The notes under the pieces are model-generated. The model saw only the letters and a program-made list of their open reading frames with translations, ran no database searches and had not been told where the DNA came from. A DNA stretch of 42,801 nucleotides from Rhodobacter sp. TJ_12 (GTDB lineage: Bacteria; Pseudomonadota; Alphaproteobacteria; Rhodobacterales; Rhodobacteraceae), in assembly GCF_020023995.1 (NCBI RefSeq), contig NZ_NRRD01000027.1, positions 1-42,801 of the forward strand, in the 5' to 3' direction. This document shows positions 1,406 to 7,622 of the stretch, piece by piece; within the stretch, counting starts at the first letter, position 1, and each line of letters starts with the position of its first letter. The translations under genes and the position numbers were made by a program.

Positions 1406-1520
1406 GCGCCAAACCCGCGCTGCCGTTGGACAAAGCCGCTTGCGCGGCGTAGAGAGGAAGCACTGGCGGTCCGGCAGTTTCCTTTGCGCTGCGCCGCAGC
1501 AACATGGAGGCATGAGCGCG

Positions 1521-3143
1521 ATGCGGGTAGTCGTTCTTGGAGGCGGTTTCGGCGGCATGTATACGGCCCGGGCGCTGCGACGCGCGCTGGGGCGCAAGGC
1601 CGAGATCGAGATCATCAACGCCGAGAACTATTTTGTCTTTCAGCCACTGTTGCCCGAAGTGGGCGCAGGCTCGATCACGCCCGCTCATGCCGTCTCGCCG
1701 CTGCGTTTCATTTTGAAGGGCGTGGCAATCCGCAAAGCGGTGGTCGACAGCGTTGATTTCACCCGCAAGGTTGTGACCGTCTTCCAAGGCATTCAGCGCC
1801 GCCCGACCGAGGTGCCCTATGACCATCTGGTGATCGCGCTGGGGCAAGGGGCCGATTTTTCGCGCATGCCGGGGCTGGAAGAACATGCGCTGAAAATGAA
1901 AACGCTCGAAGATGCGCGCCGCCTGCGCGAGCATGTGATCGAGCAATTGGAACATGCCCAGGTAACCGCCCTGCCCGATACCAAGCGTGGTGCGCTGACC
2001 TTTACCGTGGTGGGGGGCGGCTTTTCGGGTGTGGAAACCGTGGGCGAGATGAAGGAACTCATCGACCGCTCGTTGCCGTTTTATTCCAACATTGATCCGT
2101 CCGAAGTGCGGGTGCTTTTGGTCGAATATGCGCCGCGTATCTTGAATGAGATGCCGCAAGAGCTGGCCGATTACGCCAGCGCGCATCTGCAAAAGCATGG
2201 GATCGAACTGAAGCTGAAAACCGGTGTGAAAAGCTGCACCCATCGTCAGCTTGTTACCTCGGATGGCGAGGTGATCGACACCCGCACCATCGTGGCGACC
2301 ATCGGCAATGCGCCGCTGCCGGTGATTACCCGGATGGGGCTGCCGATGGACAAGGGGCGGATCGTCGTTGACCGCAGCCTGAAGGTGCAGGGGCAAGACG
2401 CGGTTTGGGCGCTGGGCGATTGCGCCCTGATCCCGCTGAAAGAGGGCGCCACAGATCGGCATGATTTCGCGCCCCCCACCGCGCAATTCGCGGTGCGTGA
2501 GGCGAAGCGCGTGGCGAAGAACATTGCCGCCACGATCAAGGGTAAGACGCCGGGTATTTTTGCCTATTCCTCGCGCGGCTCGCTTGCTTCGCTGGGCGCC
2601 AAACGTGGCGTCGCAGATCTGATGGGGCGCTCGGTCACCGGCTTTCCGGCGTGGTTTGTCTGGCGCTCTTATTATCTGGCGCTGCTGCCGGGTCTGGGCA
2701 CCAAGATCCGCGTGATGATAAACTGGACGCTGGATCTGATCGGCGCGCGTTCGCTGGTGCAGTTGCGCACCTATCGCAAACCGCCGATGCGCTATGTCTA
2801 TTTCCGCGCGGGCGATCGGATTTACGAGGCGGGCGACCGCTCGGACGGGTTCTATACGGTGATTTCCGGCGCGGTCGAAATGGAACGCCCCGATCCCGAA
2901 ACCGGGGAAATGAAAACCCGGATCATCGGCCCCGGCGATCATTTTGGCGAGCGGATCATTCTGGGCGCCACGCGGCGGCGCACCACGGTGCGCGCGAAAG
3001 AAGATACCAAGGTTTTGGTGATGAATCGCGCCGAATTCCTGATGCTGACCGAAGGGTTCGAGGCGTTTCGGGACTATTTCCGACCCTATATGGAAAAACA
3101 TGACGTCGCCCTGCCGGACGACGCGCAGAAATCCGACAGCTAA
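1521..3143 (+). CDS. NDH-2-like FAD/NAD(P) oxidoreductase fused to a C-terminal cyclic-nucleotide-binding domain
   Basis: Residues 1 to about 400 form a type II NADH dehydrogenase-like flavoprotein: GGGFGG at residues 7-12 for FAD, a second Rossmann motif GGGFSGVETVGE near 165, and the ALGDCALIP flavin-contact motif near 300. The following stretch (GTKIRVMINWTLDLIG) resembles the membrane-associating tail of NDH-2. Residues of about 430-530 are a CRP-type cNMP-binding domain: FRAGDRIYEAGDRSDGFYTVISG and then GDHFGERI with a conserved Glu and a downstream Arg as in phosphate-binding cassettes. NDH-2 passes electrons from NADH to quinone at the inner membrane face without pumping protons; the fused domain suggests ligand control, which is inference. 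At 540 residues it is about 120 longer than ordinary NDH-2. Start: GGAGG at 1506-1510 lies 10 bases before ATG 1521; ATG 1512 is too close to it. Monocistronic, with a terminator after it. Confidence 0.85.
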   Translation: MRVVVLGGGFGGMYTARALRRALGRKAEIEIINAENYFVFQPLLPEVGAGSITPAHAVSPLRFILKGVAIRKAVVDSVDFTRKVVTVFQGIQRRPTEVPYDHLVIALGQGADFSRMPGLEEHALKMKTLEDARRLREHVIEQLEHAQVTALPDTKRGALTFTVVGGGFSGVETVGEMKELIDRSLPFYSNIDPSEVRVLLVEYAPRILNEMPQELADYASAHLQKHGIELKLKTGVKSCTHRQLVTSDGEVIDTRTIVATIGNAPLPVITRMGLPMDKGRIVVDRSLKVQGQDAVWALGDCALIPLKEGATDRHDFAPPTAQFAVREAKRVAKNIAATIKGKTPGIFAYSSRGSLASLGAKRGVADLMGRSVTGFPAWFVWRSYYLALLPGLGTKIRVMINWTLDLIGARSLVQLRTYRKPPMRYVYFRAGDRIYEAGDRSDGFYTVISGAVEMERPDPETGEMKTRIIGPGDHFGERIILGATRRRTTVRAKEDTKVLVMNRAEFLMLTEGFEAFRDYFRPYMEKHDVALPDDAQKSDS

Positions 3144-3151
3144 GGATCAAA

Positions 3152-3178
3152 GCGCCCCGGTTAACTCGGGGCGTTTTC
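3152..3178 (+). terminator. Rho-independent terminator after the NDH-2-like gene
   Basis: CGCCCCG at 3153-3159 pairs with CGGGGCG at 3167-3173 over a 7-base loop and is followed by TTTT. It lies 9 bases after the stop codon and separates this gene from the DNA repair module. Confidence 0.85.
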
Positions 3179-3206
3179 GATTTGCCGCGGTGATGCCGGA
3201 TCAGGC

Positions 3207-3239
3207 TTGCCGGATGTGAGGATGGAACATATGATGAAC
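3207..3239 (+). promoter_or_regulatory. Sigma-70 type promoter overlapped by an alphaproteobacterial LexA box
   Basis: A -35-like TTGCCG (3207-3212), a 17-base spacer and a -10 TATGAT (3230-3235) are visible. GAAC (3225-3228), seven bases, GAAC (3236-3239) is an exact match to the direct-repeat LexA box known from Rhodobacter and rhizobia (GTTC-N7-GTTC, read on the other strand). The -10 hexamer sits inside the seven-base spacer, so bound LexA would occlude it. The expected transcription start is about 3242, the first base of the next gene, which implies a leaderless mRNA and explains why no Shine-Dalgarno sequence is present. Confidence 0.72.
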
Positions 3240-3241
3240 AT

Positions 3242-4471
3242 ATGGTCTCCAAATCGCTTTCCGAAAAGCTTGCCATCCTGGCAGATGCTGCAAAATACGA
3301 TGCCTCCTGCGCCTCATCCGGGGGCGAACGGCGCAACTCGCGCGATGGCAAAGGGCTTGGCTCCACCACCGGGGCGGGTATCTGTCACGCTTGGGCGCCG
3401 GACGGGCGCTGCATCTCGCTTTTGAAAATCCTGCTGACGAATTTCTGCATTTACGATTGTGCTTACTGCATCAATCGCGCCTCAAGCGGGGTGGAGCGCG
3501 CGCGCTTCACGGTCGAAGAGGTCGTGACGCTGACGTTGGAGTTTTACCGCCGCAACTATATCGAGGGGCTGTTTCTATCTTCGGGGATCATCCGCTCCCC
3601 CGATGACACCATGGCAGAGATGGTGCGGGTCGCGCGCACCCTGCGCGAGCGCGAGCAGTTTCGGGGCTATATCCATTTGAAAACCATTCCCGATGCCGCG
3701 CCTGATTTACTGGCCGAGGCGGGGAAATGGGCAGATCGTTTGTCGATCAATGTGGAATTGCCCACAGAGACGTGGCTGAGCAAGCTGGCGCCGGAAAAGT
3801 CGGTGCGCACGATCCACGGCGCAATGGCCGAGGTCAAGGCGCGCGGCGAGGCCGCGAAAGACCGCACGGCACGCGGCACCCGCGCGCCGCGTTTCGCGCC
3901 TGCCGGGCAATCGACGCAGATGATCATCGGCGCCGATCCGGCGAGTGATGGGGAAATCTTGCATCGTTCGGCCCGGCTTTATGGCGAGTACGCCTTGCGC
4001 CGGGTCTATTATTCGGCCTTTTCGCCGATCCCCGATGCGTCAAAAATGCTGCCCTTGGTGCGCCCGCCCTTGGTGCGCGAACACAGGCTGTATCAGGCCG
4101 ACTGGCTGATGCGGAATTACGGCTTTGCGGCGCCAGAAATTGCTGCGCCGGGCAAAAACCTTGATCTGGAGATCGATCCGAAACTGGCTTGGGCTTTGGC
4201 CAATCGGCAGCACTTTCCGCTGGATGTGAACCGCGCCCCGCGCGAGATGCTGCTGCGCGTGCCGGGCATCGGCCCCCGCAGCGTGGAGCGGATATTGAAA
4301 GCCCGGCGCTATCGCACGTTGCGCTATGAGGATTTGGCTGCGATTGGCTGCGTAATCCGCCATGCCGAGCCGTTTATTACCCTGCCCGGTTGGTCGCCAC
4401 GCGGTCTGCCCGATGATGCCAACCTGCGCGCGCGCTTCGCCCCGCCGCCAGAGCAACTGAGCCTTTTCTGA
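3242..4471 (+). CDS. Putative DNA modification/repair radical SAM protein (TIGR03916-type)
   Basis: The 409-residue protein carries a radical SAM cluster motif C69-x3-C73-x2-C76 (FCIYDCAYC), so it should bind a 4Fe-4S cluster and cleave S-adenosylmethionine. The N-terminus (KLAILADAAKYDASC) and the GLFLSSGI stretch match the family annotated as radical SAM DNA modification/repair protein linked to uracil-DNA glycosylase-like proteins. The C-terminus has a helix-hairpin-helix DNA-binding motif (VPGIGPRSVERILKAR, residues about 335-350). The reaction is not known. It overlaps the next gene by one base, so the two are translationally coupled. ATG 3242 is the first in-frame start and coincides with the predicted transcription start; no ribosome binding site precedes it. 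The LexA box upstream suggests induction by DNA damage. Confidence 0.85.
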   Translation: MVSKSLSEKLAILADAAKYDASCASSGGERRNSRDGKGLGSTTGAGICHAWAPDGRCISLLKILLTNFCIYDCAYCINRASSGVERARFTVEEVVTLTLEFYRRNYIEGLFLSSGIIRSPDDTMAEMVRVARTLREREQFRGYIHLKTIPDAAPDLLAEAGKWADRLSINVELPTETWLSKLAPEKSVRTIHGAMAEVKARGEAAKDRTARGTRAPRFAPAGQSTQMIIGADPASDGEILHRSARLYGEYALRRVYYSAFSPIPDASKMLPLVRPPLVREHRLYQADWLMRNYGFAAPEIAAPGKNLDLEIDPKLAWALANRQHFPLDVNRAPREMLLRVPGIGPRSVERILKARRYRTLRYEDLAAIGCVIRHAEPFITLPGWSPRGLPDDANLRARFAPPPEQLSLF

Positions 4472-5307
4472 TGCAGATCGTGCTGCCCCGCATTGGCACC
4501 GTGGCGGCATGGCGCGCCGAAGCGCGCCGCTTGGCGGCGGCGGGCGTGGCGCCCGAAACCGTGATCTGGTCGGTGGGCGGTGCCGCGCCCGATCTTTTTG
4601 CCACTGCGCCGCCTGTTGCGGCATCTTCGGTCACGCTTACATTGCCGCGTGCCGCCGTTGATGGGCTTGAAACCGCGCTGATGCATGCCGAGCCGGAGCG
4701 TTTTGCCCGCGCCTATGCGCTGGTGTTGCGGCTGGCGCGGCGGCAGGTCCGTTGGGGCGACCGATCCGACCCGATGATGCGCCGCGTGCTTGACCAAGAA
4801 AAAGCCGTGCGGCGCGACATTCACAAGATGCATGCCTTTGTGCGCTTTCGCGAGGTCACGCCACCGGGCGCGAACCGGCGCGCCTTTGCCGCGTGGTTTG
4901 AGCCCGATCATCACATTGTGGAAGCCGCCGCGCCGTTCTTTGCGCGCCGCTTTGGCGATATGGATTGGTTGATTGCCACGCCCACGCTGACCGCGCGCTT
5001 TGAATGTGGCGAGATGCAGATTTCCGAAACGACCGAGTCCAAGCCGCCCCCCGCCGATGCGACCGAGCATCTGTGGCGGGTCTATTTCGCCAATATCTTC
5101 AACCCGGCGCGGCTGATGGTGCAGGCGATGCAATCCAATATGCCGCGCAAATATTGGAAGAACCTGCCCGAGGCGGATTTGATCCCCGATCTGATCCGCA
5201 GCGCGCCCGCGCGGGTGATGGCGATGCAAGAAGCCGAGGCCCGCGCCCCCGATCCGCGTCTGCAAAAGCGAATGCGGGCGATTGCGGCGCAACGGAGCAA
5301 GGGTTAG
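4471..5307 (+). CDS. DUF4130 (TIGR03915-type) putative DNA metabolism protein, without a UDG domain
   Basis: The 278-residue protein matches the DUF4130 family that is consistently encoded directly after the radical SAM protein: conserved stretches are LRLARRQVRWGD, HKMHAFVRFRE (from about residue 116), EPDHHIVEAAAPFFARRF and WRVYFANIFNPARLM. In many alphaproteobacteria this domain is fused at its C-terminus to a UdgX-like uracil-DNA-binding glycosylase; here the protein stops after the DUF4130 part, and no glycosylase is encoded next door. Its biochemical activity is unknown; a role with the radical SAM protein in handling damaged or modified bases is inferred from co-occurrence. ATG 4471 overlaps the previous stop codon (TGATG). 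Its stop overlaps the convergent mntR stop by four bases. Confidence 0.82.
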   Translation: MQIVLPRIGTVAAWRAEARRLAAAGVAPETVIWSVGGAAPDLFATAPPVAASSVTLTLPRAAVDGLETALMHAEPERFARAYALVLRLARRQVRWGDRSDPMMRRVLDQEKAVRRDIHKMHAFVRFREVTPPGANRRAFAAWFEPDHHIVEAAAPFFARRFGDMDWLIATPTLTARFECGEMQISETTESKPPPADATEHLWRVYFANIFNPARLMVQAMQSNMPRKYWKNLPEADLIPDLIRSAPARVMAMQEAEARAPDPRLQKRMRAIAAQRSKG

Positions 5308-7226: not shown

Positions 7227-7622
7227 ATGGCCAAGATGATCCATTCGATGATCCGCGTGCGCGACGAGGCGCGATCATTGGCGTTTTACGAAACCGCCTT
7301 CGGGCTGAAGGTCGCTGACCGGCTTGATTTTCCCGACTTCACCTTGATTTACCTCTCGAATGACGAAGGCAGCTTCGAGTTAGAACTGACGGTGAACAAA
7401 GGGCGCGATGCCGCTTACGATCTGGGCGATGGCTATGGCCATCTGGCGGTATCGGTGCCCGATGTCGCGGCGGAACATGCACGGCTAGAGGCAGCGGGGC
7501 TCGCGCCGCGCAAGATCGTCGATTTTGCGCCTGCGGGCACGGTGATCGCGCGGTTCTTCTTCATTGCCGATCCGGATGGGTACCAGATCGAGGTGCTCGA
7601 AAGGGGCGGGCGCTATCTTTGA
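7227..7622 (+). CDS. gloA: Glyoxalase I-like VOC family protein (lactoylglutathione lyase)
   Basis: The 131-residue protein aligns well with bacterial glyoxalase I: MIHSMIRVRD at the N-terminus, FELELTVN, GYGHLAVSV and DPDGYQIEVLE. The four metal ligands of E. coli GloA (H5, E56, H74, E122) have counterparts at H6, E53, H72 and E122. It would convert the hemithioacetal of methylglyoxal and glutathione to S-lactoylglutathione in the cytoplasm; the partner gloB is also in this window, but about 6 kb away. GGAGGG lies four bases before ATG 7227. The N-terminal half is slightly shorter than in E. coli. A related VOC enzyme cannot be excluded, but ligand conservation favours glyoxalase I. Confidence 0.85.
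   Translation: MAKMIHSMIRVRDEARSLAFYETAFGLKVADRLDFPDFTLIYLSNDEGSFELELTVNKGRDAAYDLGDGYGHLAVSVPDVAAEHARLEAAGLAPRKIVDFAPAGTVIARFFFIADPDGYQIEVLERGGRYL

Follow-up and report, generated by a model that had tools for sequence, protein, structure and literature searches.

Positions 3207 to 3242 of the 42,801-nucleotide stretch of Rhodobacter sp. TJ_12 DNA analysed here (contig NZ_NRRD01000027.1, hereafter the window) very probably form a sigma-70 promoter which is repressed by LexA and drives a leaderless operon, as judged from the arrangement of the locus and its preservation in related genomes. The operon encodes a radical SAM protein of family TIGR03916 and a DUF4130 protein. Promoter, predicted operator and start codon are interlaced, the order being TTGCCG, 17 nt, TATGAT, six nt and ATG:

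3207..3212, + strand: -35 hexamer TTGCCG, from the scan for promoter-like sites and the offset of TTG in orthologues.
3225..3239, + strand: predicted LexA operator GAACATATGATGAAC (GAAC-N7-GAAC), from the exact motif, its conservation in orthologues and its occurrence at SOS genes of the same genome.
3230..3235, + strand: -10 hexamer TATGAT within the operator spacer, from the promoter scan and the TANNNT found in orthologue spacers.
3242..3244, + strand: ATG start codon, its A (3242) being the predicted transcription start; sole possible start codon, in line with the predicted leaders of family orthologues.

The initial annotation had described an exact GAAC-N7-GAAC at 3225-3239, which is indeed present, and a promoter TTGCCG-N17-TATGAT whose -10 hexamer lies inside this box. 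An independent scan of positions 2900 to 3500 returned the latter (3207-3235) as the single promoter-like site on both strands, the mean in shuffled sequence being 0.2. The -10 hexamer is contained in the operator, which is separated from the ATG by a gap of 2 nt. As the hexamer starts at 3230, adding 12 leads to A3242 of the ATG as the predicted start of transcription. This ATG is the sole possible start codon because an in-frame TGA is present at 3191-3193 with no ATG, GTG or TTG in between; the invariant columns of 21 aligned proteins, which start at residue 10, are consistent with it. A Shine-Dalgarno (SD) sequence was declared missing in the annotation; in agreement, the 20 nt in front of the start codon show weak pairing to the anti-SD (-3.3 kcal/mol).

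Conservation of the two GAAC blocks had been set beforehand as a test of this assignment, and the blocks turned out to be kept. Irrespective of orientation, an exact box is found upstream of all 30 orthologues of the window's family (L016 carries it in the GTTC orientation), of 78 of the 80 GTDB orthologues (L075 and L090 show one mismatch) and of 24 of the 25 class-wide orthologues scoring over the cut-off, among which L186 has none, while the sole copy of L187 is reversed and lies about 97 nt upstream. It is likewise present in all 22 further alphaproteobacterial orthologues, drawn from genomes for which a locus was obtained; in five of one family code it occurs only 96-99 nt upstream. The family set comprises those 30 of 38 places which were given as loci, and loci on the minus strand were turned before scoring. 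Five repeats among 135 loci (four of the 25 class-wide, one of the 80 GTDB) were dropped, leaving 130 distinct orthologues from sets which overlap slightly. The TIGR03916 gene itself is patchily distributed, being present in 37 of 198 genomes of the family and, above the cut-off, in 25 of 385 genomes of the class.

A LexA is encoded in the same genome (TIGR00498, 188.7 bits against 110.95), and its gene carries tandem overlapping boxes whose starts are 57 and 46 nt upstream of the ATG. Two boxes 11 nt apart are seen in several lexA genes, this one among them. Upstream copies of the motif are also present at recA, uvrA, a UvrD/PcrA-type helicase gene, rSAM_PA0069, an ImuB-like gene (a label given in this analysis; its Y-family polymerase matches are weak) and mmcB of this genome. 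An operator over the promoter, a LexA whose own gene carries this motif and an operator kept in the orthologues together argue for membership of the window gene in the LexA regulon. The motif is identical to the alphaproteobacterial LexA box, as the exact Caulobacter consensus GTTC-N7-GTTC corresponds to GAAC-N7-GAAC on the opposite strand (PMC12907096). In contrast to the lexA, recA and uvrA operators of the family, which end farther from their start codons, the window operator overlaps the -10 and stops 2 nt short of the ATG.

In 87 of the 130 orthologues the distance from the start of the box to the ATG is 16-21 nt, in 33 it is 24-33 nt and in four it is larger, while six have no exact GAAC box nearby. 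We distinguish class A, in which the box lies over the -10, class B, in which it precedes the -10, and a leadered class. In 50 of 87 class-A orthologues a TTG begins 18 or 17 nt upstream of the box (38 + 12), the median for other offsets being 1. The spacer reads TANNNT in 51 of the 87 class-A boxes, as opposed to 3/33 of the displaced boxes (24-33 nt upstream) and 2/38 of the lexA boxes. Because of this rarity in displaced and lexA boxes, the -10 in the spacer seems not to belong to the sequence recognised by LexA.

With one fixed promoter matrix, for which shuffled sequences yield 9%, a leader within 3 nt is predicted for 99 of the 130 orthologues. The share differs between samples (family 29/30, GTDB 64/79, new class-wide 9/21, further alphaproteobacterial 15/22). 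Hence, the layout is well preserved close to the window's family and in numerous Rhizobiales and Caulobacterales records, losing strength in deeper lineages. Grouped by class after three start codons had been moved, the predicted start falls within 3 nt of the ATG in 71/86 (class A) and 26/26 (class B) cases, in 4/11 unclassed orthologues and in one of the seven leadered ones, whose predicted leaders mostly measure 14-21 nt; since the leadered class was hand-picked by strong SD, its SD is not an independent result. The operator registers of classes A and B are about one helical turn apart, and both place the predicted start on the ATG. L069 and L071 possess three GAAC half-sites at 11-nt steps and hence both registers at once, an intermediate form. 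In a quick tree of 129 proteins (L206 was left out; 41 of 126 inner branches are weak) classes A and B interchange at least six times and the three classes at least nine times, the starred branches forcing four (A) or five (B) changes; class-B L002 belongs to a starred group of three that includes the window gene. L080, L082 and L058, whose records bear the titles Acetobacter, Brucella and Sphingobium, cluster with Paracoccaceae rows and show the same class-B operator, as if the gene had moved together with its promoter.

The leaderless-type layout is not peculiar to the radical SAM/DUF4130 gene, since it tends to recur in SplB-like radical SAM and mmcB genes of the family. The comparison sets consist of the best-scoring 30 loci each, taken from 71, 56, 57, 46 and 46 matching genomes; no start was obtained for one mmcB and one lexA locus, and 29 uvrA loci enter the leader and SD comparisons. 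A leader within 3 nt is predicted for 29/30 TIGR03916, 19/30 SplB-like and 17/29 mmcB loci versus 0/29 for lexA, 5/30 for recA and 0/29 for uvrA, with a shuffle background of about 9-10% in the sets other than uvrA. TTG occurs at -37 to -34 of the ATG in 27/30, 16/30 and 17/29 of the former versus 2/29, 1/30 and 3/30 of the latter. An SD of -5 kcal/mol or lower is found in 1/30, 5/30 and 4/29 versus 27/29, 26/30 and 27/29 loci. Among SplB-like genes (rSAM_PA0069, L213-L242), 24 of 30 loci have a distance of 9-14 nt from the end of the box to the ATG; in mmcB (L243-L272) this distance is 9-12 nt in 22 of 29 loci, and in both cases the box often lies between -35 and -10. Since lexA, recA, uvrA and the ImuB-like genes, none of whose 11 predicted starts falls within 3 nt, differ from this pattern, the layout is a trait of a subset of the regulon and not of LexA operators generally. 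Thus, the agreement of operator, promoter and missing SD on which the initial annotation had relied survives the comparison with both orthologues and other SOS genes.

Several observations weigh against a leaderless operon. The layout is not kept in every orthologue: 31 of 130 (28 once three start codons had been moved) are without a predicted leader within 3 nt, and of the 21 new class-wide loci only nine have one, while six seem leadered and nine are unclassable. Seven of the 22 further alphaproteobacterial orthologues do not fit, five of one family having the box about 97 nt upstream, and 11/30 SplB-like and 12/29 mmcB loci deviate as well. The promoter matrix used is E. coli-like. L190, L195 and L196 are without a strong SD although their box lies 41-43 nt before the ATG; since such distant-box orthologues also lack it, absence of an SD is by itself no proof. 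An SD of -5 kcal/mol or lower is present in 16/130 orthologues. Start codons (131 ATG and 4 GTG in 135 rows) were assigned by a rule which prefers ATG and moves past the box, thereby favouring short gaps. For L058, L100 and L109 it chose an ATG beside the box, so that these were re-classed by hand as B and re-measured; for L435 and L241 the start codon is probably wrong, and L409 counts as within 3 nt though its box lies about 99 nt upstream.

Alternatively, the short distance between box and ATG might reflect generally compact promoters or operator placement, with no selection for a leaderless message. The loss of the layout in many deeper orthologues would agree with this explanation, as would the ImuB-like genes, whose boxes end 14 nt before the ATG in 10/11 cases while a 23-nt leader follows from the top-scoring promoter in 9/11. 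The boxes of family lexA, recA and uvrA, however, lie farther from the ATG, with median distances of 34, 51 and 65 nt from the end of the box, and are accompanied by strong SD sequences, and the predicted start stays on the ATG in both operator registers. We therefore regard compactness as an unlikely explanation.

Outside the Alphaproteobacteria, an E. coli-type CTG-N10-CAG lies within 60 nt of the start in 23 of 28 relatives (a raw count with no shuffle control). These are 28 of 29 genomes over the cut-off, belonging to seven family codes with 12 genomes from one; in the remaining genome, L393, no box was seen by eye in 110 nt. In 16/28 the distance from the start of the box to the ATG is 29-33 nt; the predicted leader measures 15-26 nt in 19/28 and lies within 3 nt in 5/28. 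The leaderless layout is not universal. In L426, L427 and L439, all of one family, a CTGTA-N6-TACAG is seen whose final G also opens a GTG, which is the sole start codon before the conserved protein region, the predicted leader being 0; this fusion is absent from two other genomes of that family.

The leaders predicted outside the class, together with the distant-box orthologues L190, L195 and L196 and with the non-SD initiation on leadered mRNAs which occurs in Caulobacter (PMC4117421), lend some weight to a different arrangement, in which the LexA box is real and the main promoter resides farther upstream. The operator would then be part of the 5' untranslated region, where LexA would act as a roadblock, and the leader would be translated without an SD. 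In the window, however, the sole promoter-like site between 2900 and 3500 sits on the ATG, a TTG peak is found at -35/-36 of the ATG in 25/30 family orthologues, and TANNNT is typical of the spacers of class-A and not of displaced boxes. These points leave the upstream promoter with a still smaller probability than mere compactness.

The motif by itself is insignificant and proves little. It occurs six times in the window versus 1.2 expected, a number reached in 0/100 shuffles, the five other exact copies lying at 7383, 12137, 15213, 19987 and 21561, and 81 times in the 3.58-Mb genome, where 64 of 72 scored copies overlap coding-like frames according to a rough codon score. Hence, it is the position and conservation of the motif, not its mere occurrence, which give the operator assignment its weight. 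Although the copy numbers and the overlap with coding-like frames speak for a chance occurrence without function, the exact box upstream of nearly all alphaproteobacterial orthologues examined and the presence of another LexA-type motif at this gene in 23/28 genomes outside the class reduce the probability of chance to a negligible one.

LexA undergoes self-cleavage stimulated by RecA after DNA damage. For a LexA-repressed leaderless operon, we propose that in the undamaged cell a LexA dimer on GAAC-N7-GAAC would cover the -10 and the start site and thereby exclude RNA polymerase. Upon damage, self-cleavage of LexA would free the site, enabling the polymerase to use TTGCCG-N17-TATGAT and to produce a transcript whose 5' end is at A3242 or a few bases off. 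Ribosomes would then initiate on the 5'-terminal AUG without an SD, and the 1-nt overlap between the two genes would couple translation of DUF4130 to that of the radical SAM gene. A comparable arrangement, with the operator placed between -35 and -10, is predicted for many of the family's SplB-like radical SAM and mmcB genes.

On balance, and with considerable reserve, we lean towards a broader interpretation according to which many Alphaproteobacteria split their SOS regulon by mode of translation. Leaderless effectors (radical SAM-DUF4130/UdgX, SplB-like, MmcB) would be expressed from an operator/promoter/start cassette of about 36 nt, as opposed to leadered lexA, recA and uvrA with SD. Selection would hold the promoter on the AUG while the operator slides by one helical turn, and a similar fusion would have arisen in the three genomes of one outside family. 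If confirmed, this would reveal a set of alphaproteobacterial SOS effectors built for leaderless translation; with these effectors leaderless, some of the repair enzymes in damaged cells would be produced through an initiation route unlike that of LexA, RecA and UvrA. The loci also offer a natural series for relating operator position to repression and timing (operator in the -10, between -35 and -10, and leadered with SD), and an unstudied radical SAM enzyme would be placed under damage control.

SOS control as such, put forward in the initial annotation as a prediction, is supported by the conserved operator but is not new: it has already been reported for the UDG-based COG1573-COG4277 system in Alphaproteobacteria and Verrucomicrobia (PMC8565304, citing Erill 2016 and da Rocha 2008). 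That SOS-regulated UDG/COG4277 module, described for Alphaproteobacteria, Verrucomicrobia and Bacteroidetes, likewise combines a radical SAM protein and a UDG-type partner under LexA. In contrast, the window partner is without the UDG half, and a fusion of the operator with a leaderless-type promoter and start codon goes unmentioned in the available part of that article. DUF4130 has been described as a predicted mutagenesis-related enzyme (PMC3765255). Leaderless mRNAs have been reported in the class, 375 of them in Caulobacter (PMC4117421) and 171 in S. meliloti (PMC3616915); as predicted for the window, the first base of the AUG is the transcription start and no SD is present. Starts were mapped there while ours is predicted, and no link to LexA is made in the accessible portions of these articles. 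A comparison of early and late Caulobacter SOS genes revealed no difference in the distance between LexA box and coding sequence, and the word leaderless is absent from the text available of that study (PMC12700426). In other phyla, e.g. in Mycobacterium (PMC3062782), LexA has been joined with leaderless messages. For Alphaproteobacteria we found no such connection among the matches listed, which were mostly titles and openings of abstracts, so that an earlier remark is possible; the available parts of PMC7739468, PMC6473078, PMC1839093, PMC13384398 and PMC12907096 hold nothing bearing on the layout. Within the literature searched, the fusion of operator, promoter and start codon and its sharing by other SOS effectors thus appear to be new.

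The genes of the predicted operon, assigned by profile matches, are as follows:

3242..4471, + strand: radical SAM protein, TIGR03916 rSAM_link_UDG, with a weak helix-hairpin-helix match.
4471..5307, + strand: DUF4130 / TIGR03915 putative DNA repair protein without UDG domain.

The start of the DUF4130 gene overlaps the stop of the radical SAM gene by 1 nt. The radical SAM protein reaches 575.5 bits with TIGR03916 (curated cut-off 343.5), a family which we take to be equivalent to COG4277, and its C69, C73 and C76 (CX3CX2C) are invariant among the 21 aligned proteins. Its partner likewise exceeds the cut-offs of TIGR03915 (181.3 versus 112.25 bits) and Pfam DUF4130 (125.4 versus 27). In a Pfam scan, this 278-residue protein shows no UDG match and hence does not qualify as a DUF4130-UDG (UdgX-type) fusion; DUF4130 alone is also seen in L184 (279 residues), while L002 and L031 possess DUF4130 plus a UDG domain. 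Among 124 complete downstream frames, 105 encode at least 450 and 13 encode 250-349 residues, the six shorter ones probably not being the DUF4130 partner. The C-terminal half of a profile of 37 partners matches solved UdgX structures (6ail; E 7e-67), whereas this domain is missing in the window protein. No UdgX-type match above cut-off is found in the window's own genome, the best one reaching 123 of the required 189.95 bits (TIGR03914).

Between this operon and the preceding gene, CGCCCCG-GTTAACT-CGGGGCG-TTTT at 3153-3177, judged by eye and unlisted by the scan of 2900-3500, may be a terminator of the upstream gene. The latter (1440-3143) encodes a pyridine-nucleotide oxidoreductase with an NDH2_C domain fused to a cyclic-nucleotide-binding domain.
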